A stretch of DNA of 64,000 nucleotides from Desulfonatronospira thiodismutans ASO3-1 (GCF_000174435.1 NZ_ACJN02000001.1:364001-428000); one strand, 5' to 3'. Numbered from the stretch's first letter, positions 32,211 to 61,479 are shown. The notes: generated from the letters alone by a model not told the origin. Translations and numbers: made by a program.

Positions 32211-32389
32211 GTAACCATTCAGTGGGTTCCGCGGTGATGATTACTGGCACCAGGCCCTGGGGACTGTCCCCCGCTAAGTACTAAATGTGCAGATTCACGA
32301 AACTTCGCGTCTGTACTTTTTGTATTTGTGCAGAAAAGGTGTCGCGGGGACTGTCCCCAGGCCGATTGAGGCATCCCCTGAATGGTTAC
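32211..32389. mobile_element. MITE-like element with 8-bp target duplication (copy 2)
   Basis: 179 bp, with inverted ends GTAACCATTCAG (32211-32222) and CTGAATGGTTAC (32378-32389). The 8-bp AATATACC stands directly outside each end (32203-32210 and 32390-32397). Inside are two facing GGGGACTGTCCCC palindromes (32259-32272 and 32346-32358 approximately) of the kind found in REP sequences. Shares GTAAC(T/C)ATTCA ends and 8-bp duplication with copy 1 at 18181. No coding capacity. Confidence 0.75.
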
Positions 32390-32454
32390 AATATACCCAG
32401 GCCTTTTATCTAAAATGGCACGGCAAGTGCATAACATTTTTTCAGGAGGAAATT

Positions 32455-43991: not shown

Positions 43992-44828
43992 CTACTGAAC
44001 TTCACGCGTGATTAAAGCCATGCTTTCGGCGAGTTGTTCCAGAGGGTCGGCCCATTGTTCAAGCTGACTGTCTTGCCGCGCCTCTTGGGACAGTACCCGT
44101 ATTTGTCGATGATCAGCACCAAGGAGGTCAGAGTCGAGGTGCTGGAAGGCAAGAATCAGGCTGTCAAATTTTTCAGGCAGCATGCCCCATCCGCGCAAGG
44201 CTCTGACTGTTAGCGCATCCTGTTCTGCCAGCGGCAAAAGCTCCGGTGGCAGGTCGGTTTCGAAAGACGGGGCCGCCCTGCCCTGGCCGGAATGGCTGAT
44301 GTCTGTGGGTTCGTCTGCGCCGGCATCTGTGGAAAGAGCTGAAGACACCAATTCCATCTTTTGCGTGATAACATCCAGAAGGTTCTCATGGCAGGCGTCC
44401 TGGAGAACGGTCACGGAGTCAGCACCGGAGACGAAAAAAGTGTCTCCAGGCAGAAGACTTCCTTTAATGCCCAGCGACTTGCCTTCATAATCGCTCAGAT
44501 CCAAAAGCTCATAGGGAGATTTATCAATGTGCGGATATATCTGATAAACATCCCCCAGGCCTGGGGTATCCGAGACCAGACCCTTGTATATTTCTTCAGC
44601 CCTGTTCAGGTCATGTTCAAATAAGGGGTGTCCCAGACTGTAAAAACTTCTTTCCACCACGCACCCCACCAGGGTGGTATCCACAGGCTCTGAAGCAAGA
44701 ACAGCCTTTGAATGCAGAGGAATATACAAAGTCAACAGCAAGAGCAGCGCACACATTAGTACGCCCGAATAACTGATCCAAAAACCTCGCCCGTGCCCTG
44801 GAAAATACCTTTTTGAAATACTGCTCAT
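43992..44828 (-). CDS. Membrane-anchored protein with C-terminal LTVRA module
   Basis: 278 residues: one membrane helix near the N-terminus (SGVLMCALLLLLTLYIPL), a middle domain of unknown type, and the LTVRA module at about 194-278 (QDALTVRALRGWGMLPEKF, DLLGADHRQIRVLSQEAR). GGAG lies six bases before the ATG. It is the smallest member of the module family and the next gene after the four-unit repeat protein, 102 bases away. Confidence 0.7.
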   Translation of the reverse strand: MSSISKRYFPGHGRGFWISYSGVLMCALLLLLTLYIPLHSKAVLASEPVDTTLVGCVVERSFYSLGHPLFEHDLNRAEEIYKGLVSDTPGLGDVYQIYPHIDKSPYELLDLSDYEGKSLGIKGSLLPGDTFFVSGADSVTVLQDACHENLLDVITQKMELVSSALSTDAGADEPTDISHSGQGRAAPSFETDLPPELLPLAEQDALTVRALRGWGMLPEKFDSLILAFQHLDSDLLGADHRQIRVLSQEARQDSQLEQWADPLEQLAESMALITREVQ

Positions 44829-44930
44829 CTAGCACTCCCCTGACCTTGTGTGAAAAGATATACTGGCATTTACCCACCTGAAAAAGCAGGGCCTGTCCGG
44901 TCCTTGCTATGGGAGTTGTTGCAGCACAGC

Positions 44931-47822
44931 CTACAAACTGGACCCCGTGTCCACCGGCACCAGCTCCCCTTCATTATTAAAGGCAAAGCGTTCCATATGC
45001 TCCTTGAGAGCTCGAATATCCTGGGCATATTCCGAGATAGACCTGTTGGTCCCTGACTCTGCTTTAGCCAGCAGCTCACTGATCTCGGCCATATCGGCCC
45101 CCAGCAAGTCGACCCCATGCCTGCGCAGGTCCAGGGCCAGCCGGCTGAAACGATCCGGAAGATGTCCCCACGCGCCCAGAGCCCTTACAGTAACCTGGTC
45201 ATGCAATACTGTATGCTCAGCTGTATAGTCTGACACTGAAGACTTTTCGGGAAGGACATTGACCCAGCTGTAAAGAAAGACATCAGGATTATTCAGGCTT
45301 ATTAATTTAATCTGTGTCAGCCCGGGTTCTTCTCCTGTAACCTCCCCGAGTTCGGAAAGAGAAGCCACTTGTATATCAACTGGTTCCCAGGAAAGCTTGT
45401 GGTCCCTGGCGTCAACAGCAACCTCCAGGTTGGAAGAGGCTCCGGAAACCAGATCCATCTGCACAGGACTCAATGAGACTCCAAACTTGGTGTGGACTCG
45501 AAAACTCTCTGGAAGAACAACCCTGTTATTGTGATCATTTACCAGAATCAGGATTTGAAACCCCGAGTTCTGCGGTCTTTCAAAAGAGACGCGCTGCATG
45601 GAGTCACCGGAAAAAACCACCTTGTGGGATTCAGTGGCATTGAAATTGTGGTTGTTGCCGGCTTTTTGCTGAAAATCACCTCTTACCTCCAGAACACCCC
45701 GAGTCAAACGGTTGGAATGACTTCGGCTGGTTTGAGTGATGAAGTCGCCCTTGACCAGCACTTTGTCTCTGTCGTGGGTCATATTCAGATAACCCCGGCT
45801 GTCTTCAGGCTCGCCTCCCTCTTCTTGAGGCATGCCCTGCATAATATAATCGCCATGGACGACCAGGGTACCTCCACCAATGGTCAGGGTGCCATCAGGC
45901 TGGACCAGGTTGCCTTGAACAGTAAAGTTTCCGCTGGATATATCCAGCGTTCCTGGACCTTCAAAAGATATAGAGTTGTCAACCGTGAGAGAGTGACCGT
46001 CCAGATCCATGGTACCGTTAAAGCCATAAAGCCCTTTGATGACAGCATCATCTGTCAGCCGCCATCCCCTCAGCACGCTGTCAAAATAGACATCTTTGTT
46101 TGAGATGGAACACCCGGCAAAACCTGAATTGCCGGGCGCTTCAAAAAAAACTCTCTGCTCATTTTCTCCTGAAAAGAGCACCTTGTGGGATTCAGAAGCA
46201 TTGAAATTGTGGTTGTTGCCGGCTTTTTGATGAAAATCACCCCTTACCTCCAGAACACCCCGGGTCAAACGGTTGGAATGACTCCGGCTGGTTTGAGTGA
46301 TGAAGTCCCCCTTGACCAGCACTTTGTCTCTGTCGTGGGTCATATTCAGATAACCCCGGCTGTCTTCAGGCTCGCCTCCCTCTTCTTGAGGCATGCCTTG
46401 CATAATGTAATCGCCTTGGACGATCAGTGTGCCTCCACCAATGGTCAGGGTGCCATCAGGCTGGACCAGGTCACCTCCGATAACCAGCTTCCCCCTGGAA
46501 AGACTGCATGTACCTGGACCCTGCATTGTAACCGGATTTTTCACTGTCAGCGTGCGTCCTCCCAGATCCATAGTCCCGGTAAACCCGTGCATTTCCCTGA
46601 TGACAGCATCTTCCTTCAACTTCCAGCCTCTCACAACTGTCAGGAAGTAAACCTCTTCGTTAGAGATAGTATTGATTCCAAACCCGGAATTGTTTGGACT
46701 TTCGAATGATACTTCCTGTTTTTTCTTTCCGGAAAGTAGTACGTTATGCGAACCTGATGCATTGAAGTTATGATTGTTGCCCGCTTTCTGCATGAAATTT
46801 CCCTGGACTTCCAATGTCCCACTGGTCAGCCTGTTGGAGTGACTGCGACTGCTCTGAGTAATGAAATCACCTTGAACCAATACGGAATCATTTTCCCCGG
46901 TCATAACCAGGTACCCATTGCTGTCTTTCTTGTTCCCCTCATCATCCTTTTCCATACTTTGCAGGCGGTAGTCCCCGGTCACTGTCAACCTGCCTCCATC
47001 TATATCAACTGTCCCCCCGGACTGGATAAAGTCGCCATGTATATCAAGTGCCCCTCCTGCGAGTTTGAAAGTGCCATGATGTTCCGGGATTCCCCCTTTA
47101 ACGGTCATCTTGTTTCCGGCCATATCCATTGTACCAGTAAAACCATGCCCTACATTCCTGATTTTCAGATCATCATGCAGTGTCCACCCCCTTAAAACAG
47201 AATCGAAATGGACATGATCATTTGAGATCTCCAAAAGAGCAAATCCGGAATTGCCTGGACTTTCGAATGATACATCCTGTTTCTCCTTTCCGGAAAGAAT
47301 TACTTTATGAGAACCTGATGCATTGAAATTATGATTGCTGCCCGCTTTCTGCTGGAAATTTCCCCGGACTTCCAGGATTCCACTGGTCAGCCTGTTGGAG
47401 TGACTGTGACTGCTCTGAGTGACGAAATCACCTTGAACCAATACGGAATCGTTTTCTCCGGTCATAACCAGGTACCCGCTGCTGTCTTTCTTTTTACCCT
47501 CATCATCTTTTTCCATGCTTTGCAGGCGGTAGTCATGAGCGACAATCAGTTTACCTTCATTAACATTAATGGTTCCACCCACATGATATATAGATCCGGA
47601 AGAAGTAAAGGTATGTCCATTCAGATTAACATTACCACTCAGTATTAAAATATCTTTTTCATAGTTTACACTCTGAGTTAAAGACATATTAGTATCTATT
47701 ATCTTAAATTCAGAATGTTCATTGGATGCTATTGATCTTGTAAAAAAAGACCCTGACAGAATTAAGATCATCATGCAGGAAAAAATATACACTATCTGGT
47801 ATATTCTATGTTTGATTTTCAT
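44931..47822 (-). CDS. Large exported repeat protein with Big_2 domain and C-terminal LTVRA module
   Basis: 963 residues: signal peptide, four repeats of about 190 residues (GFTGTMDLGG, QGDFITQSSRSHSNRLTSG, NHNFNASGSHKV), then a bacterial Ig-like Big_2 domain (about 775-850, VSLSPVQMDLVSGASS...GEVTGEEPGLTQIKL) and the LTVRA module at 869-963. The repeats resemble parallel beta-helix or adhesin-like folds. Repeat pairs are nearly identical in DNA (about 45.60-45.88 with 46.18-46.46 kb, and 46.73-46.99 with 47.29-47.54 kb), so they arose by recent duplication. AAGGAG precedes the ATG. Confidence 0.75.
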   Translation of the reverse strand: MKIKHRIYQIVYIFSCMMILILSGSFFTRSIASNEHSEFKIIDTNMSLTQSVNYEKDILILSGNVNLNGHTFTSSGSIYHVGGTINVNEGKLIVAHDYRLQSMEKDDEGKKKDSSGYLVMTGENDSVLVQGDFVTQSSHSHSNRLTSGILEVRGNFQQKAGSNHNFNASGSHKVILSGKEKQDVSFESPGNSGFALLEISNDHVHFDSVLRGWTLHDDLKIRNVGHGFTGTMDMAGNKMTVKGGIPEHHGTFKLAGGALDIHGDFIQSGGTVDIDGGRLTVTGDYRLQSMEKDDEGNKKDSNGYLVMTGENDSVLVQGDFITQSSRSHSNRLTSGTLEVQGNFMQKAGNNHNFNASGSHNVLLSGKKKQEVSFESPNNSGFGINTISNEEVYFLTVVRGWKLKEDAVIREMHGFTGTMDLGGRTLTVKNPVTMQGPGTCSLSRGKLVIGGDLVQPDGTLTIGGGTLIVQGDYIMQGMPQEEGGEPEDSRGYLNMTHDRDKVLVKGDFITQTSRSHSNRLTRGVLEVRGDFHQKAGNNHNFNASESHKVLFSGENEQRVFFEAPGNSGFAGCSISNKDVYFDSVLRGWRLTDDAVIKGLYGFNGTMDLDGHSLTVDNSISFEGPGTLDISSGNFTVQGNLVQPDGTLTIGGGTLVVHGDYIMQGMPQEEGGEPEDSRGYLNMTHDRDKVLVKGDFITQTSRSHSNRLTRGVLEVRGDFQQKAGNNHNFNATESHKVVFSGDSMQRVSFERPQNSGFQILILVNDHNNRVVLPESFRVHTKFGVSLSPVQMDLVSGASSNLEVAVDARDHKLSWEPVDIQVASLSELGEVTGEEPGLTQIKLISLNNPDVFLYSWVNVLPEKSSVSDYTAEHTVLHDQVTVRALGAWGHLPDRFSRLALDLRRHGVDLLGADMAEISELLAKAESGTNRSISEYAQDIRALKEHMERFAFNNEGELVPVDTGSSL

Positions 47823-47864
47823 TTTTATTGTCTCCTTAATATAGATACATATCCCTATAAATCA

Positions 47865-49769
47865 TCACGATACACCTGCAGCCTGCATAACTTTATTCAT
47901 TTGTTCGTGCAGTTTTTTTAAGGTCTTTTGATGTTCTGCTGACATACGCAGGCTGTCAGCGCTGTTGATCCATTTTTCTAATTGATCTATATCTGCGCCC
48001 AGCAGATCTTTGCCCTGCCCCCTAAGATGCATGGCCAGGGAGTTAAATCCCGGGGGCACATCTTCAAAAGCCCTGAAGGCCCGTACTGTAAGCCCTTCCT
48101 GGCTGACCAGGGCCAAAAGTTCCCGGCTGAATCCTTCCTGAACTTCCACCTCTTCAGCAGTGTCGTCACCCATGACTGTTTCGCTGCTTTCCACTTCTTC
48201 AGGCTCCTGAGGTGCAGGTGCCGGCATTTCAATTGCCCTGACTTCAGCAGGCTCTATGTTTTTATACATGAACACTGCAGGACCGGAAGTCATAGGTCCC
48301 GGCCTCCTGCCGGTATTTACCAGCATAACATGGCCTTCCGGTCCCACAGCCATTTCGTTGCGGTTGCCCGCCTGATTGCTGGTGGGTACTACCTGGAGTA
48401 AACGCCCGCTTCGGTCATAAATCCATATGGAATATCTTTCCTGGGCATAGATATTGCCGGCATTATCAACTTCCAGGTGCTCAAAATCCGGCATATTGAA
48501 CTCATCTACATATACAGGCGGTGTACCTGAACCATACAGGCCCCAGGCCTCCATACGCCGGCCTTCATGGTCCAAATTTACAAAAAATCCTTCTGCATCA
48601 TCTTCATAAACTGCAAATATGCTCCCGTCAGGAAAAATAGCAAAAGGATATGTACCGTCCATATTCAACTTTGTCTGAACTTGCATATCCCTTGAAAATT
48701 TGACTAAAAAAGGGCCATTTGCATCACCCGATCTGGATTCTGCACCCATTAAAAGACCTTTCTGATTTGAGCTGATTATGTAACGAGCATATAAACGTTC
48801 ATCTTTACCAGACACCGATAGATCCAGGGAAAAGCTGTCATCAAGCTCTCCTGCGGGACTGAATCTCAAAAGCTCATCCGGGTTCTCATTATTTCTGCCT
48901 ATCAGGATCAGCAGGTGACCATCGCTTTCCGCCCTTGCATCTATGCGTCTTACGGCAAGATTATCTCTTGTGGCCTCTTCTTCAAAGCTCCATTCATGCT
49001 GGACCTCTCCCCCATGGTCATAGATGCGCACCACGTACCGGGAACGGTCCACCAGAGCTGCATACCTGCCCGGCAGCATCACCGGCTGGAAATCGTTGAA
49101 CTCCCGTTCTCCAATTTCCTTGTATGTAAAATAGGAATCCAGCTCCAGTGGAGGCGGGCTGTCAGCATCTGCGGATTTCAGGATACTTTCAATTAAACCC
49201 GGATGCTGGTTCAAAAGATGGTCATTGGCCATAAGAAATAACATCCGGTAGTTGCCCTCTGCATCAGGTATCTTATTCACCGCCACAGCCCATGTTTGAT
49301 GTGAGTCAAAAGTTCCATCCGGAGCATTTTCCTGCATTGTGAACATGGCTTTGACCAGGAATGCCTCCTCTCCGGCCAGGGTAATGTACGATGTTTCAAA
49401 TTCTGGTTCATCAGTACTCATCTCAGGCAGCATTTCCTGAAAATCCTTATAAAAACCCCGGTAACCGGCTTCGGCATGACCGCGCGGAGGAGGTTCGTGT
49501 CCCAGCCCAACACCTCCCCTGGCCATTTTCTTGAGCTCTTCAACTGAAATATCCTGCGGAATTCCCATGGGGCCAATACCCAGAATATACAGCAACTCAT
49601 CTCTTTCCATCAGAGGCAGGGCATTTGCAGGAAGATCAAGATAAAATCCACCCATCCAGCGCGTAACAGTTTCGTTCTTTTCTGCTGCAGCATTTACTGA
49701 AAAAAGCAATAACATTAAGGACATCATAAAAATCACAGGGACAAAGCTGTTTTTTAGCTCTTTAATCAT
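47865..49769 (-). CDS. Exported beta-propeller protein with C-terminal LTVRA module
   Basis: 634 residues: signal peptide (VIFMMSLMLLLFSVNAAA), an N-terminal domain, an NHL-like propeller at about 230-510 (for example GHLLILIGRNNENPDELLRF, FEHLEVDNAGNIYAQERYS), a Pro/Glu-rich linker and the LTVRA module at 547-634 (QEGLTVRAFRAFEDVPPGF, DLLGADIDQLEKW). It is the most divergent member of the module family: Trp is replaced by Phe. AGGAG precedes the ATG. Confidence 0.75.
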   Translation of the reverse strand: MIKELKNSFVPVIFMMSLMLLLFSVNAAAEKNETVTRWMGGFYLDLPANALPLMERDELLYILGIGPMGIPQDISVEELKKMARGGVGLGHEPPPRGHAEAGYRGFYKDFQEMLPEMSTDEPEFETSYITLAGEEAFLVKAMFTMQENAPDGTFDSHQTWAVAVNKIPDAEGNYRMLFLMANDHLLNQHPGLIESILKSADADSPPPLELDSYFTYKEIGEREFNDFQPVMLPGRYAALVDRSRYVVRIYDHGGEVQHEWSFEEEATRDNLAVRRIDARAESDGHLLILIGRNNENPDELLRFSPAGELDDSFSLDLSVSGKDERLYARYIISSNQKGLLMGAESRSGDANGPFLVKFSRDMQVQTKLNMDGTYPFAIFPDGSIFAVYEDDAEGFFVNLDHEGRRMEAWGLYGSGTPPVYVDEFNMPDFEHLEVDNAGNIYAQERYSIWIYDRSGRLLQVVPTSNQAGNRNEMAVGPEGHVMLVNTGRRPGPMTSGPAVFMYKNIEPAEVRAIEMPAPAPQEPEEVESSETVMGDDTAEEVEVQEGFSRELLALVSQEGLTVRAFRAFEDVPPGFNSLAMHLRGQGKDLLGADIDQLEKWINSADSLRMSAEHQKTLKKLHEQMNKVMQAAGVS

Positions 49770-49916
49770 TTTGGACTCCTTTTATCCCCCGGCCTTTACC
49801 GGAAGAATCTCTTTACTTGATGCACCTGCAAAAAGTCGGGAAATGAATAATTCAGAAACCAACAATCTACATAAGTCTTTGATTTTACTGAACTCTGACG
49901 TCTGATCTCTGACGTC

Positions 49917-49948
49917 TGTGACTGCAAAAATGACTTTTTGCAGTCACA
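49917..49948. terminator. CTGCAAAAA-type hairpin
   Basis: TGTGACTGCAAAAA and its exact complement around TGAC, a 14-bp stem. The preceding 100 bases are similar to those before the palindrome at 40865, with CTGATCTCTGACGTCTG-type short repeats. It lies between the propeller gene and the TPR gene and probably ends the transcript coming from upstream. Confidence 0.6.
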
Positions 49949-50028
49949 TCTTACTTGCACCCAGATAACTTCAAAGCAGATACCTCTGCAGTATTCATTA
50001 CGCTTTTCTCAAAAAAACACGCCTGCAT

Positions 50029-50841
50029 TTACTGCTGCAGCTCGATATAAGAGCGAAGCCGCCTGATTCTGTCTGCCAGTTCAGGAGTGGGCTCCATTTC
50101 CTGGCTTTGTTCAAAATACTCCAGTGCACGGGAATATTCTCCCCGGCCCATGAAATCCATACCCTTACTGAACATCCCGGCAGCAGCGGAATCTTCAGTC
50201 TGGCCCAGCTGTTCATGTACTTTGCCCGCAGGATCTTCGCCCGGGTGAACAGTCGAGACTCGAAGAAGTTCTTCCAGTTCCTGCGTAAGGGCTTCTTCAT
50301 CAAAAACAGAATCCACGGATACAACTGACTCAAGTTCCTGAGCCTGAAGACCAAAGTCCTGCATTCGCACCCTGTTCAGGGTCCAGCTCTGATCAGCCAG
50401 GCCCCGGTCCAGAGAAATATAAATGTTTTCTCCCGGGTGAACCCTGATCAGCCTCCGGGTTCCCAGTTTGTTCCCCTGGGGTACAAACTGGACGAAAAAG
50501 GCCTGGTCCTCAGCGTGATCCGGGTCCTGAAAAACCTGGAAAAAGACAACCGGGGAACTGGACTCATCACCTGCCACCGGTCTTTTTGCCGAATCCAGAA
50601 GCTGCAGATGTCCTGAAGCACTTGTTCTGACCCAGATTTGGGTGACCACCGCTTCCTGCTCTTCATCCGGGTCAGGCAGATAAGCCCCGAACTCCATCAC
50701 CTGTGGCAGACCCTGCAACGGATCATTCCAGTCCCCGTGGATTTTCTGCGGGAAGACAAGGCAGGAGAATACAAGCACCAAGAGCACTACATTACTCTTG
50801 CCCGGCCATATCTTGTTGTAAAACAATAAATAATCGTGCAT
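50029..50841 (-). CDS. Exported protein with C-terminal TPR
   Basis: 270 residues with one hydrophobic segment near the N-terminus (SNVVLLVLVFSCLVFP). The middle is a domain with AVVTQIWVRTSASGHLQLLD; the end carries a TPR (GMDFMGRGEYSRALEYFEQS). Probably periplasmic, possibly a partner of the large protein upstream. No family recognised. Confidence 0.55.
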   Translation of the reverse strand: MHDYLLFYNKIWPGKSNVVLLVLVFSCLVFPQKIHGDWNDPLQGLPQVMEFGAYLPDPDEEQEAVVTQIWVRTSASGHLQLLDSAKRPVAGDESSSPVVFFQVFQDPDHAEDQAFFVQFVPQGNKLGTRRLIRVHPGENIYISLDRGLADQSWTLNRVRMQDFGLQAQELESVVSVDSVFDEEALTQELEELLRVSTVHPGEDPAGKVHEQLGQTEDSAAAGMFSKGMDFMGRGEYSRALEYFEQSQEMEPTPELADRIRRLRSYIELQQ

Positions 50842-50966
50842 GATGAACTACTTCCCCAAAAAGGTTGGAGCCTGGAAATGCTGGCGTTGCCTGCACTGCC
50901 TGCTCTTATCAGCCCGGGGTACAGACTTCTCTTGGATTGCGGAAAGTCCGGGCCTGAACCATTTTG

Positions 50967-53900
50967 CTAATCAGTCTCCAGCGTCCCGGGGGGTTCTTTT
51001 AACGGCAAAAAGAAAAATCCCAGGGTAAAATATGTGGTCATGGGGTCATATCTCAAGGGTATACCGTCCTCCACCAAGGGTTCATCTGTCCCGGCCTTGA
51101 AAAAATCAATGCTGTAATTGGTAATAAGCTCCAGTGAAAAGGATTCGGTGTGCTCATCAGGTTCCGGAACCCAGGAAATAGAGGTTGCGGCATTGTTGCC
51201 CCTTACCCTGGGGCTGTACATAAACCCTGTGGAAAGCATCCAGTGTTTGACACGCACCTCGGCATCCAGGGACGCTGCTCCTTGCGGAGAAGGAAACATA
51301 ACCCTGAACCGCGGGGGCATGGGCACGGAAACTGTAAGGTCCAGCTCTACCGGCTCTCCTGGATAAACATATCCGCTGCCCAGAAGGTCCGGCGGCTCAA
51401 TCCCCTGCTCTCCTGCAAGACCTGTAAGACCGCCGGCCATTTGCAGAGCCTGAGCCATTTGTGCTTCACTCAGTTCCATACCCATTTTTTCCAGTTCCGC
51501 CTGCATGTGCTGCTTCATAATATCCTCCACAGACTCCTTGGGGTGAAGCATTTCCTGCAGCCTCTCCCAGTCGGAACTGTATTCGGATATCTCTTCCTGT
51601 ATTCCTGAAATCCCGGGGGTGGCTATAATTGTGGCTTCTGGAAACCTGACCGTGGGATCGTTGGCAAAAGGTGTTGCAGTGGTCCAGTAGGTACGGTTCT
51701 CAAACAGATCCATAGTGATGGTTTCTTCTAGAATTTCCACGGGATGCACATGCACCATGGCCTGGTCTTCATCCAGAAGAAGACCTGTCCTTATGTCTGC
51801 AAGGCTGACAGTAGCCGTAAAACTCTGGGGCTCTTCGCTGTCCTCGAGGATGGCGTGCAGCTTCCAGGCGGGGATCTCGGTGATGCCGTCCTGCTCCATA
51901 AAGGTCCAGTAATAATAGTAAGTGCTGTCCGGGTTCAGATTCGAGACAACAGCATGCACTGGCTCATAGTCCCCATCGGTGAAACTGTACTGGCTTTCTT
52001 GGAACTCGATTTTTTCCTCTGCTGCCAGAAGAAGCAGGACGTCTCCCGTCTGACGCCGAACCGTGCGCTGCATGAAGGAAAAGTGTCCGTCCAGACCGGA
52101 TATATTCACCTCAATATCCACTAAAAAAGGGTACGCCTCGGGTACTGCAGGGATCTCAGCCAGCCACTGGCCCGGCTCCGTCTCCTGGGCGCCGGGAAGG
52201 GATATCTCATAAGTCACGCTGACATCAGGGTCCTGCCCTGCGGCGTCACGGATTCCATGCCGGATGCGATTGACTGTGTTCTGAAAACCTCCCCCCAGGC
52301 TTATTTCCACCTCAAAAACCATATCCTCATCTGCATCCGGATCATAAGGAATGTTCATGGGGGATGGAGGTGTGGTGTGCACGGTAATATCCATCCAGCG
52401 CAGCCTGTTGATTTCCGAAAGGATTCGGTTTATGCGCTGCTCCAGATCAAGGATTTCAGCTTCCAGCCTCTCCTGCTCCAGCCGGGCCTGCTCCTGCAGC
52501 TCTCTGGCCTCCTGAAAAACACTTCTCATGAAGCTGCCGCCTTCATTAACCGCCTGCAGGGCCTTATCTCTTTCAATGCCGGCATTACGCAGAGCTCTGA
52601 ACATCTGTACGCGCATATCCGCTTCAGCGGTGCGGCTGTCGTATTCCAGGACCGCCTCGGCCAGTTCCCCTTCTGCCCAGGATTCCACGATCCGCCCGGG
52701 GGCTCTGATGGTATAAGCAGCTCCGCTGTAGACAGACTCCCCCATCCCGTACACTACATCCCCGAGGTTATAGAGCATGTACAGCTTGCCGCCGTCAGGT
52801 CCTATCCCGTCCTCTATCACCAGTTCCGGCGATTCTATCTCTGCACCGGCGGCACGCAGGGCCTCGGCCCTGGCTTCCAGGACGTCCAGGTTTCCCGCCT
52901 CTACCGAAGCAGCTACGTATGCCCTGGCCTCTCCCGGGTCCATGCCCGCCCTCCTGAAACGGATTTCCCACTGGGTCAGGTAGGCAGCCAGATTGTTCTC
53001 ATTGGCCTGCCTGATTGTCAGGTGGGCGTCCCTGGCATCCACTATGCTCTGTCCCATTCTCTTGCTTGTTCCAACTATGGTTTCCGCTCCACCTGCGACC
53101 ATGCCCACAGGGGTAGCAGACAAGGGCGGTACCCTCAGGCCCTGACGGGCCACATCAAAAAGGCTGGCATCCCCCTCCATATAGTCTTCCAGGGTCTGTC
53201 CCAGATGACCTATATCCGTAAAATCAGTAACAGTACCGTAAACCTGGGCTGCTCTGCGTGCCCCACTGCCCAGCTGCTGCATCCTTGTGGGCCCGGCCGG
53301 GGTCTCCGGGCCTGTCAGTTCAATTACCGGTTTTCTGCCGTTGGCAGCGGCAGTGGCCTGCATTCTGGCCCTGGAATCTGTTATTTCCTGACGCAGTGCA
53401 CTCTGTCGCTGCTGGTAGGATTGCTGCAGCCTTTCCTTTCTGAGCCTTGTGGCCTCTGTGTCACTTACGTTATCGAGTCGGCGCATGTTTTCATCTATAC
53501 GGCGCAGGGCATCTTCCCTGGCCCTGAGTTCCTGATTGGCCCGCTGCAGTGTTCTGGATTCAGCAGAGTCAAAAATTTCTGCTGCAGCCTGACGCATACG
53601 TCCGGCCTCAGAGGGATCACTGACCACGGTACGGGCTTCCTTTATATTGTTCAGTTTCCTGCGAAACTCTTGCGGACTCTCTCGTATACCGTGACGTTCT
53701 AAGATTGAACCCAGTTCTTCATCAGGCAGTTCACTGACTCTCAAGGTTTTATCCACACTTTTAGCCATGGGCTGCATGAGTTCAGGGTTTCCTGCCAGAT
53801 CTCCTGAACTGGAATTAAGTCCTCCGGAAGCCTTTTTCAGGTGATCCTGGACCTCAACGTATCCTGCCCCGGCCCGGGTTTTGCCGGTAACCGGATCACG

Positions 53901-54602
53901 CATGGAGGCGGAGACAAAAACTTCATGGTTCCGGGCATGGTTTTCAATCTGGATCCGGTGGTATTCGCTGCCTACCTGGGCCGGCAGGCCTTGTTTATGC
54001 ACTGTAAGATCAAAAGGGTCGTCCCCCCAGGGAGTCGGAGCACCGACTTCTAATGTTGCCGGACTGTCGGTAACCGTTAAATGGTCCAGCCCCATATCCT
54101 GCAGAACGGATTCCACATTATCCACTGCAACGGCTCCTCCTGCTGCATCCAGATCCCCCATCAGTCCGCGATGGGCCCGGTCGTCTATACTTGTTCCCAG
54201 GGAGGCGTCTATGCGCTGTCGAAGAATGCTCCGGGAATTACCGGCCCTGGCACTGGATTCGTTTAACACTGCCTGATGCACCTGATGCCTCTTGCGACCA
54301 AGCTCCTGAGACACTGCTCTGTGCCGGCTGACTTCGCGCTGCATAAAATACTTCTTCCGGGTCTCGGACATGGGTGAATTTTCAATCTGTGCAAGGTTAT
54401 CCCGGTAGGCCTGCATCTCGGCATCCCAGGCCACTTCAGTCTGTTTCCAGAGGTTGCCGATGGCCCAGAGTTCTTTGTCGGTGTAAAGAACAGGGTCCAC
54501 CGCACTCATTGCCCGGCAAGGCGAAAGCAGCGCTAAAAAGACTATCAATCCTATACAGATCAAGTGCTGCAAAAAAAATTTCAGGCATAAATCATTATTC
54601 AC
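50967..54602 (-). CDS. Giant exported protein of unknown family
   Basis: 1,211 residues from GTG 54602, preferred over GTG 54611 because AAGGAG stands six bases before it. Signal peptide, then a long N-terminal half rich in helices and coiled coil (about 350-430 and 690-750), several FGG/AGG short loops, and a C-terminal half with beta-rich domains (YYYYWTFMEQDG, VFEVEISLGGGFQNTVNRI) and a final hydrophobic-beta segment ending in FFFLPLKEPPGTLETD. No known domain is recognised. It has no LTVRA module but sits next to a protease that does. Confidence 0.55.
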   Translation of the reverse strand: MNNDLCLKFFLQHLICIGLIVFLALLSPCRAMSAVDPVLYTDKELWAIGNLWKQTEVAWDAEMQAYRDNLAQIENSPMSETRKKYFMQREVSRHRAVSQELGRKRHQVHQAVLNESSARAGNSRSILRQRIDASLGTSIDDRAHRGLMGDLDAAGGAVAVDNVESVLQDMGLDHLTVTDSPATLEVGAPTPWGDDPFDLTVHKQGLPAQVGSEYHRIQIENHARNHEVFVSASMRDPVTGKTRAGAGYVEVQDHLKKASGGLNSSSGDLAGNPELMQPMAKSVDKTLRVSELPDEELGSILERHGIRESPQEFRRKLNNIKEARTVVSDPSEAGRMRQAAAEIFDSAESRTLQRANQELRAREDALRRIDENMRRLDNVSDTEATRLRKERLQQSYQQRQSALRQEITDSRARMQATAAANGRKPVIELTGPETPAGPTRMQQLGSGARRAAQVYGTVTDFTDIGHLGQTLEDYMEGDASLFDVARQGLRVPPLSATPVGMVAGGAETIVGTSKRMGQSIVDARDAHLTIRQANENNLAAYLTQWEIRFRRAGMDPGEARAYVAASVEAGNLDVLEARAEALRAAGAEIESPELVIEDGIGPDGGKLYMLYNLGDVVYGMGESVYSGAAYTIRAPGRIVESWAEGELAEAVLEYDSRTAEADMRVQMFRALRNAGIERDKALQAVNEGGSFMRSVFQEARELQEQARLEQERLEAEILDLEQRINRILSEINRLRWMDITVHTTPPSPMNIPYDPDADEDMVFEVEISLGGGFQNTVNRIRHGIRDAAGQDPDVSVTYEISLPGAQETEPGQWLAEIPAVPEAYPFLVDIEVNISGLDGHFSFMQRTVRRQTGDVLLLLAAEEKIEFQESQYSFTDGDYEPVHAVVSNLNPDSTYYYYWTFMEQDGITEIPAWKLHAILEDSEEPQSFTATVSLADIRTGLLLDEDQAMVHVHPVEILEETITMDLFENRTYWTTATPFANDPTVRFPEATIIATPGISGIQEEISEYSSDWERLQEMLHPKESVEDIMKQHMQAELEKMGMELSEAQMAQALQMAGGLTGLAGEQGIEPPDLLGSGYVYPGEPVELDLTVSVPMPPRFRVMFPSPQGAASLDAEVRVKHWMLSTGFMYSPRVRGNNAATSISWVPEPDEHTESFSLELITNYSIDFFKAGTDEPLVEDGIPLRYDPMTTYFTLGFFFLPLKEPPGTLETD

Positions 54603-54643
54603 ACTGTTCACTCCTTAAACAGGGTAAGCATACCCAACCGGGT

Positions 54644-56014
54644 TTACCTCCAGGAACTTTTTTCCATATATTCCGCCAGGGACTCGAGTTCTCCTGCATG
54701 CCGGGCCAGGTCCGGATCATCCGAATTCCGGGCTTTATCTGACCAGATCCGTACCTGAACCTGGTTGGCCCCCAGAAGGTCCATATCGTGCTCAACAAGA
54801 TTCAGCACCAGACTTACATAACCCGACGGCAGCCTGTCCCAGGCCCGCAGCGCCCGCACCGTGAGCAGGTCTTCTTCAGCCAGCTGTTGCAGTGTATACT
54901 GCTGCCTGGTTTCCGGCAGGGCGTCCTGGGCTTCTAAAGCGGCCAGACCCTCCCGGACCAGATAAGCTGTGTCGTAAAGCCTGCTGCCGGCTACTTTAAT
55001 GTCCGGCTGCAGTCCCTCAGGAGAACAGGGGGTTTCTTCAGGGCCCAGGACATATCCGTTGGTCATCTGCAGAACTGAACCATCGGACAGAGAAATCCGG
55101 GTCTGGGTGCTGCACTTGCCATAGGACGGCTCTCCTGCCAGGAGTGCTTTGCCGTGAAATTTAAGTGCTGCGGCGAAAGCCTCTGCCGCGCTGGCTGTAT
55201 CCGGCCCTGTAAAAACAACTATCCGCCCTGAGAGCTTCTCCCCGGGAGGCGAGTTGACCAGTGTCTTGCCGGATTTTTTCGTCCAAAGGCCCCCCAGGGA
55301 CTTGCCGGGCTCAATAAACAAAGCGGCGCAGTCCAGGGCCTCGAAAAGGTCTCCTCCCGTGGATTCGCGCAGGTCAATAAAAACCGGGCTGCTGCCTGCC
55401 CCCAGATAATCGATACTCACCCTGAGAGAGGCCCTGGTTCTCCCGGCTGCAAAATCCCGGATTCTCAGCACGGCCTGATCCTGGGGCTGCAAAAGCTCCA
55501 CATGCAGAGGCCGGACAGCCTCTCTTTTCACCCGGAGCTCTACCATGTCCTCCCCGGATAAAGGCCTGAGCTTCAGGTCAACCATCTTTCCCGGAGGCCC
55601 CTGAAGCATGGCTGCTGCTTTTTCAAGCTCTTCTCCGGCTACCCTGATTCCGTTAACTTCAAGAAGTACCGATCTCTCTGTCACTCCTGCTCTGGCCAGA
55701 GGACCATCCTGATAGGGTGAAACCAGGATCTCTTCGTCCCTGGAAAAAATCTCGGCCCCTATGCCTGTATATTGCGCTTCCAGGGCAGTCTGATGTACTG
55801 ACTCGCCTTTTGCAAAATACCTGGCGTAGGCATCCAGAGACTGGAGATCATCCTGCAGAGTGTCTTTGCTCAGACTCTGCAGCAAAGCCTCATCCGGCGG
55901 GTCCGGCAGGTGCTGACGCAAAACCTGGCGTATTTCCTCCAGCAAAGGCTTCGCAGCAAGATCTGCCGGAAAAAAAAACAGCAGCAGAAAAAGCCAGGGT
56001 AGATGTTTTTTCAT
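54644..56014 (-). CDS. S41 tail-specific-type protease with PDZ domain and LTVRA module
   Basis: 456 residues from ATG 56014 (GGAAG upstream). Signal peptide (WLFLLLFFFPADLAA), PDZ domain (about 75-150, LARAGVTERSVLLEVNGIRV), S41 peptidase domain with candidate nucleophile Ser274 in TASAAEAFAAA and Lys300 in SYGKCS; the 26-residue spacing agrees with the Ser-Lys dyad of Prc/CtpA-type proteases. The C-terminal 85 residues are the LTVRA module (371-456). It probably cuts exported proteins bearing the right C-termini; the module may choose the target or location. Confidence 0.78.
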   Translation of the reverse strand: MKKHLPWLFLLLFFFPADLAAKPLLEEIRQVLRQHLPDPPDEALLQSLSKDTLQDDLQSLDAYARYFAKGESVHQTALEAQYTGIGAEIFSRDEEILVSPYQDGPLARAGVTERSVLLEVNGIRVAGEELEKAAAMLQGPPGKMVDLKLRPLSGEDMVELRVKREAVRPLHVELLQPQDQAVLRIRDFAAGRTRASLRVSIDYLGAGSSPVFIDLRESTGGDLFEALDCAALFIEPGKSLGGLWTKKSGKTLVNSPPGEKLSGRIVVFTGPDTASAAEAFAAALKFHGKALLAGEPSYGKCSTQTRISLSDGSVLQMTNGYVLGPEETPCSPEGLQPDIKVAGSRLYDTAYLVREGLAALEAQDALPETRQQYTLQQLAEEDLLTVRALRAWDRLPSGYVSLVLNLVEHDMDLLGANQVQVRIWSDKARNSDDPDLARHAGELESLAEYMEKSSWR

Positions 56015-56078
56015 ATAAGCACTTCCAGTTTCCAGGCAGTTAACACAAACTTCCAACAAACATGTTGATAACTTTTTC

Positions 56079-56470: not shown

Positions 56471-57028
56471 CTAACCGCTTAGTTCCAAGGCCAGCTCCAG
56501 CAAAAGCTCGTATTCCTCCTGCAGGTAGCGCCTCTGCTCTTCCAGCTGCCTGCGGCGCAGGTCCACCTCTTCCCCGGCATCGCCGTGGCCATGTGTGCCT
56601 TCCAACTGATCCAGGGCGCTTAGCTCCTGCTCCTGTTTTTGCAGGCCACTTTGCAGGTCATTCAGCCTGGATCTGAGTTCATTGACCTTTTTTTCCCCTG
56701 CAGCATCGCCGGCACTCATCCGGGACACCTCCTGTTCCAGGCGGGCGGTGGAATTTTGCATCTCCTCCAGGTGTGCCCTTTCAAGCTCAATCTGTTCGCG
56801 CAAATCGGTCTTCTGGGCGTCGATTTCCCGGCTTTCAGCATCCAAATCCTTTTGTATCTGCTGTAAACGACTGAGCCTTTGTTCGCGCTCCTCCACCCTT
56901 TCTTCATAAGCCCCCGAGCCCAGGCCGCTTATGCCTCCGAAAAATCCTCCCTCGCGCGGATCCTGGGAAGCGCCGCACCCGGCAAAAAGCAAAACGCAGA
57001 TTAAAACCGGTAAGTATAAGTATCTCAT
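56471..57028 (-). CDS. Coiled-coil lipoprotein
   Basis: 185 residues: lipobox FAGC (Cys18), then continuous heptad-like coiled coil (SRLQQIQKDLDAESREID and so on). The start overlaps the stop of the upstream gene (ATGA), so the two are coupled. Probably an outer-membrane-anchored rod that works with the preceding lipoprotein; family not recognised. Confidence 0.65.
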   Translation of the reverse strand: MRYLYLPVLICVLLFAGCGASQDPREGGFFGGISGLGSGAYEERVEEREQRLSRLQQIQKDLDAESREIDAQKTDLREQIELERAHLEEMQNSTARLEQEVSRMSAGDAAGEKKVNELRSRLNDLQSGLQKQEQELSALDQLEGTHGHGDAGEEVDLRRRQLEEQRRYLQEEYELLLELALELSG

Positions 57029-57669
57029 ATGGACAGCCTCTCATCTATGCTGGCCAGCTGGGCGCTGCCCTCGCCAAGGGCGGCGATATTGGCCTGCAGT
57101 TCCTGCACTTCCTTTTCCAGGGCGGCAATGCGGGGGTCATCCTCGGGCAGGCTCTGCCTTTCCTCTTCTATGATGGCCGTCTGGATGGCCAGCTCGCTTT
57201 TCAGTTCTTCTTCGAGTTCTTCATTTTCCTGGATACGTTTTTGAACCTCTGCCTGTCTGGCCAGCAGAGTGTCTTTCTCCTCTGCACCTTCTTCATAGGC
57301 CTGTCGCAGGGATTCCACCTCTTCTTCCAGGGCCGCCAGTTCCTGCCTGCTTCTATCGTTGTACTCGCGCATGGTTTCATTGTATTCCGCTGTCCGGGCG
57401 GCTTCAGCCTCCAGAAACTCTTCCTGAGTGGCGTACTCAGCCTTACGCTTGGCCACCTCCCGGCCCACAAGATACCCCAGGCCTGCTCCGGCCGCGGCCC
57501 CGATCAATGCCCCCCTGCCGTCTCCGATTAGATATCCGGCCAGACCTCCGGCTGCAGCACCCACGGCTGTACCCTCGGCCTTGGTCCGCCTTTGATCAGA
57601 ACCGGTTATACATCCGGACAGAATCACGGCCATAAAAACCAGCAATATAATCGCCCTGGACCCTTTCAT
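57025..57669 (-). CDS. Glycine-zipper coiled-coil lipoprotein, possibly TagQ-like
   Basis: 214 residues: lipobox LSGC (Cys20), glycine-zipper segment (about 35-70, GTAVGAAAGGLAGYLIGDGR), then coiled coil to the end. In Pseudomonas aeruginosa TagQ is the outer-membrane lipoprotein that retains TagR, encoded with TagRST; here a lipoprotein of this kind directly follows the TagR-like gene. Sequence identity with TagQ cannot be judged. AAGGAGG precedes the ATG. Confidence 0.6.
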   Translation of the reverse strand: MKGSRAIILLVFMAVILSGCITGSDQRRTKAEGTAVGAAAGGLAGYLIGDGRGALIGAAAGAGLGYLVGREVAKRKAEYATQEEFLEAEAARTAEYNETMREYNDRSRQELAALEEEVESLRQAYEEGAEEKDTLLARQAEVQKRIQENEELEEELKSELAIQTAIIEEERQSLPEDDPRIAALEKEVQELQANIAALGEGSAQLASIDERLSI

Positions 57670-57704: not shown

Positions 57705-59426
57705 TTATTGATCAAATTCCTTAAAGACCTCTTCATACTCTTTAAACCAGCCTTCTCTGTCTGCACGGCGGTGCTGGCTGAAATCCTCGACATGAGTGGT
57801 CAAAAGCTGCAGCACGGCCTTCTCCCGGGGCAGAGGTTCCTGCTCGCGCATGCTTTCCAGGGCCTGGTCTATGTAGTCCTGTTCGTAGTCCCCAAGCTCG
57901 CCCACCTTGTCCGTATAAGCCTGAAACTGCTCTTTTTGGGCTGAACTCAGTTCTTTTATCCTCTGCTCCACAGCACTGACCTGCTCCAGGTATCTGCTGG
58001 ACATTTCCGCCAGCCGCCTGGCGGCCTCAAGGCTGTTTTCCAGGCTTACCAGGCGGGAAATGTAGACACTCAGATTAACCCCGTTGCGGGCCGCATCCTG
58101 GGCCAGGCTGCGTGCACTTTCCCGCTGGGCCATGTCCAGGCGCTGCCTGGCCTGGTCCATGAACTCCTGCACTGTATGCAGATCATCGCTCAAATGGGGG
58201 TGCTCCTCCATGAGCCTGCCCAGGATGGGCTCCACGTCCCCCAGCTGCCCCGCGGCCTGGGCCACCAGGTTGTCCATGGTCCGGCCAACGGGCATGGCCT
58301 TGCGCACCATGTCCTTGTATTCCTGGTATTCGTCTTCCATGGCCGCTCTGACCCTGGTATTGACCACCACATTGGAACCAATGGCCAGGCGCGCCCCGGT
58401 GTTAAAGGAACGCCTTTCCTGAACCCGCTCCTGGTCCTGGTTCCAGGCGTAGACATCCAGCTCCTGACGCAGGGAGGAGCGCATATCCGACACCGGCGTG
58501 GACACGCTGCCGCCGCGAACGCTCACCCCGCCGGGCTTGCCCTGCCACACCTCGGGCCTGAAGAAACCGGCGGTCATTTCCTGGACATTGCCCAGCATGT
58601 CAAAAAAACCCAGGCGGCATGGCTGGCGCAGGCCTATGGGCCGCACCCTGTGGCTGGCATTGCCCAGATGCCAGGCATACTCATTGATCCTCTGCATGGC
58701 GAAAGGCAGGCGATCATTGAAGGTACCGTCCTCAATGGCCGGCAGCCCCCCGCGCACAGTGAACTCCCACTCCTCCTCGGAGGGAAGCCGGATAAATCCT
58801 GGTATACCGTCTATCTCCGGTATATTTTCCAGGCGCTCGGGGTGCTCTGCATCAAAAAGCCACTGGTTGTAGCTGCGGATAAACTCCTGGATATCCTGGT
58901 AGCTGACAAAAGACAGCGGCACCATCATGGCCTCCTGCAGGGCGCGGCCTTCCAGTTCAGCCAGCTGGGACGCATCCGGATCGGCACTGGCCTCAATCAA
59001 GGTATCCAGGCCCATGACCGAAGCAAACTGCCCCCTGGTCAATTCATATTTGGCCAGATAAATTGCCTGTCCCCGGCCATCATCAGCAGGAAATGATCCG
59101 CTGATCTGGGTGCGCTGCAGGCCTTCGAAAATCCCGCCGGATGCATCGCCCATCTGGATGATCTGCTCCTCATCCCCCCAGTAGCCCTGACCAGGCACCT
59201 GAACCTTGCGAAAAACCATTACAGAATCGCCGGGCATGGGCAGGACTATATCCGCCTCATCCGGTCTGGGGTTGTCCGGTCCGGCCGGGGGTGCGGCCAT
59301 GCCGGCCTCGGCCCGGAATAAAAGCAGGATGAAAAAAACAGACACAAACAGGCAAAAGTGCATTGCCCTTAGTCTTTTTGTCCAACAGCGAAGGCATGTG
59401 ATTATTTGCGGGTATTGAACATCCAC
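57705..59426 (-). CDS. tagR: SUMF1-domain periplasmic protein, TagR-like
   Basis: 573 residues: membrane or signal segment (CLFVSVFFILLLFRAEA), SUMF1/FGE-sulfatase-type domain at about 60-350 (YLAKYELTRGQFASVMGL, GFIRLPSEEEWEFTVRGG, FDMLGNVQEMTAGFF, SVRGGSV) and C-terminal coiled coil. In the T6SS threonine-phosphorylation pathway, TagR activates the kinase PpkA from the periplasm. The neighbours (FtsX permease, ABC ATPase, vWA protein, lipoprotein) match that set, but the order is reversed relative to P. aeruginosa. GTG start with AAGGA. Alternative: an unrelated FGE-like adapter. Confidence 0.65.
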   Translation of the reverse strand: MDVQYPQIITCLRCWTKRLRAMHFCLFVSVFFILLLFRAEAGMAAPPAGPDNPRPDEADIVLPMPGDSVMVFRKVQVPGQGYWGDEEQIIQMGDASGGIFEGLQRTQISGSFPADDGRGQAIYLAKYELTRGQFASVMGLDTLIEASADPDASQLAELEGRALQEAMMVPLSFVSYQDIQEFIRSYNQWLFDAEHPERLENIPEIDGIPGFIRLPSEEEWEFTVRGGLPAIEDGTFNDRLPFAMQRINEYAWHLGNASHRVRPIGLRQPCRLGFFDMLGNVQEMTAGFFRPEVWQGKPGGVSVRGGSVSTPVSDMRSSLRQELDVYAWNQDQERVQERRSFNTGARLAIGSNVVVNTRVRAAMEDEYQEYKDMVRKAMPVGRTMDNLVAQAAGQLGDVEPILGRLMEEHPHLSDDLHTVQEFMDQARQRLDMAQRESARSLAQDAARNGVNLSVYISRLVSLENSLEAARRLAEMSSRYLEQVSAVEQRIKELSSAQKEQFQAYTDKVGELGDYEQDYIDQALESMREQEPLPREKAVLQLLTTHVEDFSQHRRADREGWFKEYEEVFKEFDQ

Positions 59427-59643: not shown

Positions 59644-61479
59644 TCAGTTATCCCGGATTACTTCGGCCGGATCTATGCGCGTTGCCCTCCAGGCAGCCAC
59701 CAGCGAGCCGGCCAGGGCCAGGCAGGTGGTCAGAAAAACTATTCCGCCCTTATAACTCAGGGGCAGGGAGCAGAACCTCTCCCCCGGGGCCAGCTCCGAG
59801 GCAAAGGTATGATTGATCATTGCCGCCAGGGTGTAGTAGCAGGCAAAACCAAGCATCAGCCCGGCAGCAGCTATCATCAGTCCCTGGACCATGGGCAGAA
59901 AAAACACATGCCTGCGTCCCAGGCCCACTAAGCGCAGTACCCCCAGGTCCCTGCGCAGCCGTTCCACCGCAGCATAAAGGCTGGAAAGCAAAACCGCTGT
60001 TCCACCGCTTATTCCCAGCAGGGCCAACAGGGAATAAAGCCTGGTAAGACCGGCATCCAGCACCTGAATGCGCTGAATGGTTTCCACCTGGGCCAGAACC
60101 TCCATGTCCTCTTCCTGCAGCTTCCTGTACACGCCGGGAACATCGTCAATACTTTCGGTATACAGGCGAAAACCCCTGAAGCCGCCCCTGACCATGGCAA
60201 ACTCCCCTGACTCGGATTCCAGCTTCACTCCGCGCTGGCTGGCTGTTCTAAGCACACCCATGAGCTCCGCCGGGACCAGGAGCCTTTGAAGATCTGTGGT
60301 TCCAGCCTTTTGAAGCTCTATATCCAGCTGCAGCACTCCATGAAAAACCATCTCCAGCCCGGAATCAAAATCTTCAGGCAAAAGAACCCGGGTCAGTCTG
60401 TCCGCCGGTGCTGCACTGCCGGTAAAACCTCCCCAGGGAGGATAATCCACTCCCAGCAGAAGAGCCTCCCTGCGGCTTATGGACAGCCCTGCCGGAGATA
60501 TTTCCCTGCCTGCAGCATCCTGGAGCACAACTCCGCTGACATAGGGCAGCAGGATATGTTCCTTGCCCCGCAGCTTTTGGCGCAGAGCCCGGATCCAGGA
60601 CATGGTGGCCGGACTGCCTGGAGTGCTCAGGCTGTAAGCAGTCCATTCCTCAGGCAGTGGCACAGCGGTTTTTTCTGTTACTTGAGAATGTTCAGCCTTG
60701 TTTATGCCGGCGAAACCGGTGTTTATAATCAGCCCGGTGCGCTCAATGGGGTCCATGGGATCAGGCATCAATAGCAGCACCCCGTCATAGCTGAGGTAAG
60801 GCTCTGGAGTATCACCTTCCCAACCCCTCGTTGGTACACCGTAACCCTCTTTATAGGCTTCGATATCCACTACAAAGGATAATGGAGCATAAATCCGGGG
60901 CAGGGATCCGGCCCTGGGAGGCAATACTCCAGCCACCTCCAGGCCCGTTGCCGCCATCTCCCTGCGGCCTCCCCGGCTCCGGGTGACCCTGGCCTCCAGG
61001 ACATCTCCCTGCTCAAGACCGAGAACCCGGGCGGCCTCATGGGTAATCACGCACTGCCCGTCTTCTGGTGCCGGGGCACCGTTTTCCAGGAGCAGAGGAT
61101 CTCCCGGACCGCTGGATATAAGATCAAACATTTCCAGCCTGCCGGTGTGTGGATGTTCCACATGCACTATGGAAGACAGGGGCAGCACCGAGGGAACGAT
61201 GAACTCCACCCCGGGCCAGCTGCCCACCTGCTCAAACCATTCCGGGGAAAACTCATATATCTGGGCCGGCCGGACTTCCCGGTACACAGGGTCTTCCACC
61301 AGTCTGTCCCGCAGGGTTTCAATGGTGCCGTGCTTTAGCCCCAGAAGAATAAGCAGCGGTGCAATGACCGCGGCCAGGGCTATAATCAGGCACAGGGTCA
61401 GAATACGGTCGTGCACCAGGCTGGATGCGGCCAGCCGTGGTACGACCTTGAGAGGGTAATTTTTGTCAGACGACATCAT
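59644..61479 (-). CDS. tagS: FtsX-like ABC transporter permease, TagS-like
   Basis: 611 residues. One membrane helix near the N-terminus, a long periplasmic region (about 50-450), and three C-terminal helices of the FtsX/MacB type (LYSLLALLGISGGTAVLLS, FFLPMVQGLMIAAAGLMLG, FLTTCLALAGSLVAAWRA) with the final RIDPAEVIRDN. Start ATG 61479 or 61476; the former overlaps the ATPase stop as ATGA, the latter has better spacing from GGAG. It pairs with the ATPase and probably transmits mechanical force to periplasmic partners rather than moving a solute. Confidence 0.7.
   Translation of the reverse strand: MMSSDKNYPLKVVPRLAASSLVHDRILTLCLIIALAAVIAPLLILLGLKHGTIETLRDRLVEDPVYREVRPAQIYEFSPEWFEQVGSWPGVEFIVPSVLPLSSIVHVEHPHTGRLEMFDLISSGPGDPLLLENGAPAPEDGQCVITHEAARVLGLEQGDVLEARVTRSRGGRREMAATGLEVAGVLPPRAGSLPRIYAPLSFVVDIEAYKEGYGVPTRGWEGDTPEPYLSYDGVLLLMPDPMDPIERTGLIINTGFAGINKAEHSQVTEKTAVPLPEEWTAYSLSTPGSPATMSWIRALRQKLRGKEHILLPYVSGVVLQDAAGREISPAGLSISRREALLLGVDYPPWGGFTGSAAPADRLTRVLLPEDFDSGLEMVFHGVLQLDIELQKAGTTDLQRLLVPAELMGVLRTASQRGVKLESESGEFAMVRGGFRGFRLYTESIDDVPGVYRKLQEEDMEVLAQVETIQRIQVLDAGLTRLYSLLALLGISGGTAVLLSSLYAAVERLRRDLGVLRLVGLGRRHVFFLPMVQGLMIAAAGLMLGFACYYTLAAMINHTFASELAPGERFCSLPLSYKGGIVFLTTCLALAGSLVAAWRATRIDPAEVIRDN

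Follow-up and report, generated by a model that had tools for sequence, protein, structure and literature searches.

In the sulfate reducer Desulfonatronospira thiodismutans, five otherwise dissimilar exported proteins have in common one homologous module of about 85 residues, the LTVRA module, which is found across two phyla almost only beside a seven-gene envelope operon. Because one complex is matched by several unrelated exported partners, which bear at either chain end one small domain that has a near-invariant motif and is present only with that complex, we favor a docking reading (probability of about 0.58), in which the module would be a helical periplasmic docking domain attaching Sec-exported client proteins to the trans-envelope complex of the seven-gene operon. 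Judged from sequence, the module is probably a plug that joins exchangeable proteins to a sensing complex working without its classic secretion system.

A domain common to five exported proteins

The five module genes all lie in a minus-strand block between 35 and 56 kb of the window, that is, of the whole 64,000-nucleotide stretch that was analyzed. The five copies are the following.

40349–40615, minus strand: LTVRA module 1, N-terminal, directly after the signal peptide of a 1670-aa ankyrin/PQQ-propeller protein (35714–40726) with Ank and PQQ domains; own-genome HMM E 6e-39, leave-one-out E 2.4e-25, AlphaFold2 pLDDT 91
43995–44258, minus strand: LTVRA module 2, C-terminal in a 278-aa exported protein (43992–44828) without Pfam domain; leave-one-out E 6.3e-23
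44967–45233, minus strand: LTVRA module 3, near the C terminus of a 963-aa repeat protein (44931–47822); leave-one-out E 3.7e-21
47871–48137, minus strand: LTVRA module 4, C-terminal in a 634-aa exported protein (47865–49769); leave-one-out E 2.2e-17
54647–54910, minus strand: LTVRA module 5, C-terminal add-on of an S41 protease (54644–56059); leave-one-out E 1.5e-22

These segments align over about 90 columns, the other copies being 34 to 42% identical to module 1, and their invariant columns include T22, V23, R24, and A25 as well as P, LL, A, and L/E/M columns. Profiles built from four copies were run against the six-frame window and the fifth copy was sought; each left-out copy was found at E values of 2e-25 to 2e-17, while the best unrelated ORF scored 0.04 to 0.32. 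This rules out chance or low complexity as the origin of the likeness and bears out the initial annotation, which had recognized the five shared segments as homologous and placed them in the right frames and to within a few residues. The whole 4.1-Mb genome contains exactly five strong copies, all in the window (next candidate, E 0.01). Recent duplication within the window was also rejected as their source, since the copies group with the clients of other genomes in a module tree of 84 columns, many forks of which are unresolved.

What the initial annotation said of the partner proteins stood only in part. Its ankyrin/PQQ and S41 protease partners are matched by the corresponding Ank, PQQ, and S41 domains in Pfam. 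On the other hand, the propeller proposed for the 47865–49769 protein finds no support in Pfam, a formal Big_2 domain in 44931–47822 reaches 20.2 bits against a cut-off of 22.8, and no sign was seen of the membrane anchor attributed to the 43995–44828 protein, whose N terminus is ordinary and signal-peptide-like. The copy given as C-terminal at 44934–45218 is followed by about 16 more residues and is therefore near-C-terminal.

A scan of the genomes of 84,980 species with the five-row profile returned 23 loci, in Desulfonatronospira, Desulfonatronovibrio, Desulfacinum, Desulfopila, Desulfomicrobium, Ectothiorhodospira, Thiorhodospira, Thioalkalivibrio, Wenzhouxiangella, an Oceanospirillales MAG, and others, many of them with two or three module genes side by side. 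Together with later searches of relatives, this gave a family set of 64 near-full-length, nonidentical copies from two phyla, with a mean pairwise identity of 38%. The Arg of TVRA is kept in 64/64 copies, and T, V, A, L, P, D, and A are each kept in more than 90%.

AlphaFold2 predicts module 1 as a compact all-helical domain (pLDDT as above, pTM 0.79). Foldseek against the PDB gave no structural relative (best E 1.5), which does not establish a new fold, and a second structure aligner (VIA) gave Z scores of at most 3.5 against known folds. A profile match to the PDB sequence of a de novo helical repeat (E 9e-4) was put down to helical composition. When 40 members were compared with Pfam, NCBIfam, and PHROGs, no match was convincing or over a curated cut-off (PHROGs having none curated): the best E values in Pfam and NCBIfam were 0.0017 (C2c1_helical_1st, seven members) and 0.0028 (aroma_sacti_dom, one member), the best in PHROGs was 0.015 (phrog_3622, one member), and module 1 itself had no match in the three collections. 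Identification with a PADLOC family was discarded, the PADLOC matches being generic ATPase ones only. A search for the module in viral contigs found none, as did a search for an RNA family in the block. Literature searches for the gene set, covering open-license papers, turned up no account of either the module or the seven-gene operon. The module thus appears to be a hitherto undescribed domain family, in agreement with the initial annotation, which did not recognize the pattern and had proposed profile searching and structure prediction as checks; no well-described family was matched, and the AlphaFold2 helix order of the protease-borne module 5 is the same as that of module 1.

The adjoining operon and its linkage to the module

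A core operon lies directly upstream of the module block. In order of transcription, its genes are as follows.

62426–64000, minus strand: VWA-domain exported protein, running past the window end, 743 aa in all (L032:2426–4657)
61476–62207, minus strand: ABC ATPase, TagT-like; PF00005 E 1e-23
59644–61494, minus strand: long FtsX permease, TagS-like; PF02687, profile A3
57705–59426, minus strand: long SUMF1-like (FGE) exported protein, TagR-like; PF03781 E 4e-19, signal-peptide-like N terminus
57025–57669, minus strand: glycine-zipper lipoprotein (LSGC lipobox), TagQ-like; PF05433 Rick_17kDa_Anti at 29.4 bits, over cut-off, and synteny
56471–57028, minus strand: coiled-coil lipoprotein (LFAGC lipobox); orthologues at the same place
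54644–56059, minus strand: S41 C-terminal-processing-type protease; PF03572 E 2e-23, aligned to a carboxyl-terminal protease chain

The VWA assignment is based on a VWA_4 match below cut-off and on orthologues at the same place; a Pfam search for a kinase domain in this protein and in the other operon genes found none. The SUMF1-like protein is the sole FGE protein found in the genome, with orthologues 55 to 61% identical in other taxa, and the coiled-coil lipoprotein has orthologues in G025, G033, G036, G040, G052, G061, G546, G687, L014, L015, and L020. Apparent permease-ATPase fusions in G060, G546, and G202 proved to be an artifact of ORF selection, the ATPase lying in another frame. In the VWA protein, an LEGTHGHG-like motif recurs behind the signal peptide, and one copy of it (LEGTHGHGDAG) is also found in the coiled-coil lipoprotein at 56471–57028; the motif was not seen in the orthologues scanned, and the stretch could be metal-binding or recombined. 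In three Desulfovibrionales genomes (G036, G040, and G052), a second ABC pair, made of an 865-aa MacB-type permease and an ATPase, lies upstream of the VWA gene.

The S41 protease has PDZ and S41 domains, and its catalytic Ser and Lys (S290 and K315) are invariant in 13 orthologues. In most lineages, it has no module, and such orthologues stop at the very junction where the module starts in Desulfonatronospira, G025, G033, and G016. The AlphaFold2 model of the window protease consists of a well-predicted PDZ/S41 body, a weakly predicted linker (pLDDT of about 54), and a separate helical domain whose helices follow each other as in module 1. The end of the module-free orthologues at the junction, together with the linker and the separate domain of the model, thus indicates that the module is a domain appended to S41.

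Co-occurrence was followed with profile A3, which is the permease minus its generic C-terminal domain, a strong hit being one with E below 1e-200. In the order panel of 61 Desulfovibrionales genomes (the window's own and 60 relatives), a strong permease hit is present in 10/12 module genomes versus 0/49 others, and the two module genomes without such a hit (G002 and G016) are split into 200 or more contigs. Among 321 Gammaproteobacteria, two genomes, G061 and G202, have the module, and the strong permease hits fall in exactly these two; in the phylum panel of 395 genomes, both are present in the window's genome and in G546. The corresponding Fisher p values (7e-10 for the order, 2e-5 for Gammaproteobacteria, and 1e-5 for the phylum) ignore shared descent and are descriptive. 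Scoring in the large panels covered a share of each genome's candidates, so that single weak copies may be missed there.

Physical linkage is equally close. Of the 28 module copies on a permease-bearing contig, 27 lie within 25 kb of the permease, and in G052 about 990 kb separate one module gene from the operon. Two phyla share the seven-gene order; single-protein searches recovered the operon order beside module genes in G025, G033, G036, G040, G052, G060, G061, G202, and G546, and in part, up to the locus ends, in L011, L014, L015, L020, L023, L025, and L027. The module gene of G202 is even inside the operon, between the VWA and ATPase genes. Conversely, G687, G660, G403, and the Azospirillum plasmid L096 have the whole seven-gene order, in more divergent sequences, and no module could be detected in them, so that the complex does not need the module, which is therefore an addition in one operon clade. 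The initial annotation had proposed that the module genes form one system, possibly with the TagQRST-like complex next door, and that profile hits be inspected for such neighbors, and this proposal is strongly supported by synteny and co-occurrence in the two phyla.

Three further genes of the neighborhood recur elsewhere.

50967–54611, minus strand: 1214-aa exported protein between S41 and the clients; 44% identical over its full length to its positional counterpart in L020 (Oceanospirillales)
50029–50841, minus strand: TPR protein paired with the 1214-aa protein; same neighbor order in L020
33138–34424, minus strand: 428-aa membrane protein, a recurrent client neighbor; homologues adjoin module genes in L010, L012, L024, L025, L029, G025, G546, and G060

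The agreement with L020 thus extends past the operon, in the order S41, 1214-aa protein, TPR protein, and two module genes. Distant homologues of the 428-aa membrane protein are found beside module clients in Ectothiorhodospira, Desulfacinum, and G025, and this protein is possibly a further component of the system. Two FlgO-family proteins on opposite strands, at 30494–31312 and 32287–33060, flank the block, one of them with a peptidoglycan-binding domain. The L009 and L010 contigs (MAG Syntrophobacteraceae T3Sed10_239) encode proteins 70 to 96% identical to window genes (55% for the 278-aa protein); filed under another family, they are probably a binning contamination.

Client proteins and readings of the module

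The clients, usually two to five per genome, are otherwise unrelated to one another. They comprise ankyrin giants (the ankyrin/PQQ protein of the window, L016, and L022), FGE/SUMF1 proteins (L011, L012, and L014), WD40 proteins (L014 and L009), Sel1-repeat proteins (L023 and G033), a weakly hydrolase-like protein (L020), S41 proteases, and many proteins without Pfam domain. A simple hydropathy test finds a signal peptide in 59/68 module ORFs, many of the failures being incomplete pieces. In 51/67 copies, the module is N-terminal, directly after the signal peptide, and in the remainder it is internal or C-terminal, some ORFs of this count ending at locus ends. The predominantly C-terminal placement described by the initial annotation is a trait of this genus and of the S41 fusions. 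In the weakly resolved tree of 84 columns, clusters unite modules of one client type from different genera and phyla and not those of one genome, with support of 98/96 for the S41-fused clade and 99/99 for the FGE-fused clade, which indicates that the tagged clients are old and maintained.

In the docking reading, the module would be a small, independently folding helical domain of the periplasm through which Sec-exported proteins join a shared trans-envelope complex, the product of the seven genes. This complex would work like the TagQRST sensing complex, its outer-membrane lipoproteins and its periplasmic SUMF1 and VWA proteins being coupled to an ATP-driven FtsX-type machine of the inner membrane, and would run without needing a T6SS. 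Ankyrin giants, WD40, Sel1, FGE, and hydrolase-like proteins and proteins of unknown domains would be recruited through the module as exchangeable inputs or outputs, as would, in some lineages, the S41 protease. One complex with several clients per genome is the many-to-one pattern seen for docking. Binding of the module to the complex and a role in signaling are what we infer from these sequences, and the complex may act on its clients by sensing, as a scaffold, or by regulated S41 processing. As the module goes with the long-permease clade, the permease, the SUMF1-like protein, and the VWA protein are the first receptor candidates. More tentatively, and as a proposal that falls somewhat short of an even bet, the whole may be a T6SS-independent, TagRST-type trans-envelope sensing machine of at least two phyla, programmed through a dedicated, undescribed docking module by exchangeable clients acting as lineage-specific input and output.

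Homotypic association is the main rival, and the same genomics would be expected from it. Like the Death-like adaptor domains of the cytoplasm, the modules would associate with one another and thereby build the different exported proteins and the protease into a single periplasmic particle, the operon being the partner of this particle and not the receptor of the module. We consider this a minority possibility that deserves weight: several copies per genome in adjacent genes, a small helical domain, unrelated partners, and the presence of the module on S41 alone among the core subunits all fit it, but G202, with one genome match among the part of candidates scored, has a single module gene in the operon region, which therefore has no different partner to bind. 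The module could also be the feature that the operon S41 protease recognizes in choosing or processing its clients, much as C-terminal processing proteases (CTPs) recognize tails. Although the protease is always in the operon, with its catalytic Ser and Lys kept, this is unlikely, given that known S41 CTPs act on C-terminal tails and that most modules are N-terminal, in proteins of up to about 1500 aa; moreover, the protease itself bears the module in some lineages, and S41 is present also in module-free operons.

A signal sending Sec-exported proteins out of the periplasm, via the complex or another machine and in the manner of the T9SS CTD, is still less probable. The large repeat and adhesin-like passengers would suit such a signal, and SUMF1-like GldK/PorK occur in T9SS, GldK being weakly matched by a module-bearing FGE protein; however, sorting tags are usually at one end, the position of the module varies from N-terminal through internal to C-terminal, and no outer-membrane channel gene was recognized in the operon. 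The initial annotation had envisaged a docking or sorting module; a pure C-terminal sorting signal is disfavored because most copies are N-terminal, where T9SS CTD and PEP-CTERM signals are always C-terminal, and because a Sec signal peptide is already present on nearly all carriers. Finally, it is very improbable that the module acts on its own as a ligand- or membrane-binding domain and is linked to the operon by a mere shared genomic island, for the linkage persists across two phyla whose client sets differ, and hundreds of genomes lack both the operon permease and the module.

If the docking reading is true, the module is a searchable signature for clients of a TagQRST-type envelope complex and can serve as bait for the receptor subunit, its unrelated partners reveal which domains nature attached to the complex, and dozens of "hypothetical" exported giants become members of one system.

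Comparison with known systems

In P. aeruginosa, TagQRST is an envelope-spanning sensory module that activates PpkA and the H1-T6SS (PMC6657622, PMC6082577), in which TagQ resembles the 17-kDa antigen with its glycine zipper (PMC3608642). The window operon resembles this system by gene content: its TagR counterpart combines PF03781 with a signal-peptide-like N terminus, PF02687 and PF00005 correspond to TagS and TagT, and the TagQ counterpart, with PF05433 over cut-off and a LSGC lipobox, is a predicted outer-membrane lipoprotein. It differs by its VWA protein, which is no PpkA-type Ser/Thr kinase according to Pfam, by the additional coiled-coil lipoprotein and S41 protease, and by the module-bearing clients. 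VipB, a T6SS sheath gene, was sought in G025, G040, and G052, which have the operon and modules on single-contig, 99% complete assemblies, and was absent, so that the operon is no T6SS accessory there; in the window's genome, VipB is present on another contig. The "TagQRST-like complex" of the initial annotation thus holds for gene content and not for T6SS service, in at least three module genomes, or for the kinase.

TagQRST has been called restricted to Pseudomonas (PMC6082577), but Tag genes are annotated in Deltaproteobacteria, most of them without T6SS, and host-associated members combine srfBC with tagQ, ppkA, and often tagRST, one alone having T6SS genes (PMC3608642). TagQRST-type cassettes that stand apart from T6SS had thus been seen before; what is new, as far as our literature searches go, is the S41-containing branch and the module. 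Weaker permease hits (E 1e-29 to 1e-44) were rejected as T6SS TagS, most of these genomes having no VipB and 11 having a nearby SrfB. They include a second branch, with a short permease of about 400 aa, within about 7 to 14 kb of srfB in 11 genomes (G026, G030, G034, G038, G042, G050, G053, G768, G530, G204, and G230), which suggests that a Tag-type cassette is a regular partner of srfABC. The srfABC-linked cassette of host-associated Desulfovibrio (PMC3608642) and of a Klebsiella IncFIB plasmid has the same order of VWA, ABC ATPase, permease, and SUMF1 genes, with permease and SUMF1 homologous to those of the window operon, and differs by its short permease, the nearby srfB, and the absence of the LTVRA module; SrfB was found in none of the module genomes tested. 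On the Klebsiella pneumoniae plasmid pPM48TC_140 (L095), the row srfB, srfC, a gene of unknown function, VWA, ABC ATPase, short permease, and SUMF1 is a plasmid-borne relative of the core cassette, and 115 Klebsiella plasmid records match the SUMF1-like protein of the window. On the Thiodictyon plasmid pTs485 (L097), an FtsX permease gene and a SUMF1 gene of this kind lie a few kilobases from VgrG and PAAR genes and represent a T6SS-linked branch outside Pseudomonas.

In cohesin-dockerin and similar docking systems, a small domain repeated on exported partners attaches them to a common complex. The resemblance of the LTVRA module to them is one of arrangement, with one small domain on many unrelated exported partners that would join a common complex. 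As for the protease, it shares with CtpA and CtpB, which are S41 C-terminal processing proteases, a fold made of PDZ and S41 domains and the Ser/Lys motifs of the catalytic site, and is distinguished from them by the C-terminal LTVRA module, present in some Desulfovibrionales, and by its membership in a seven-gene operon.
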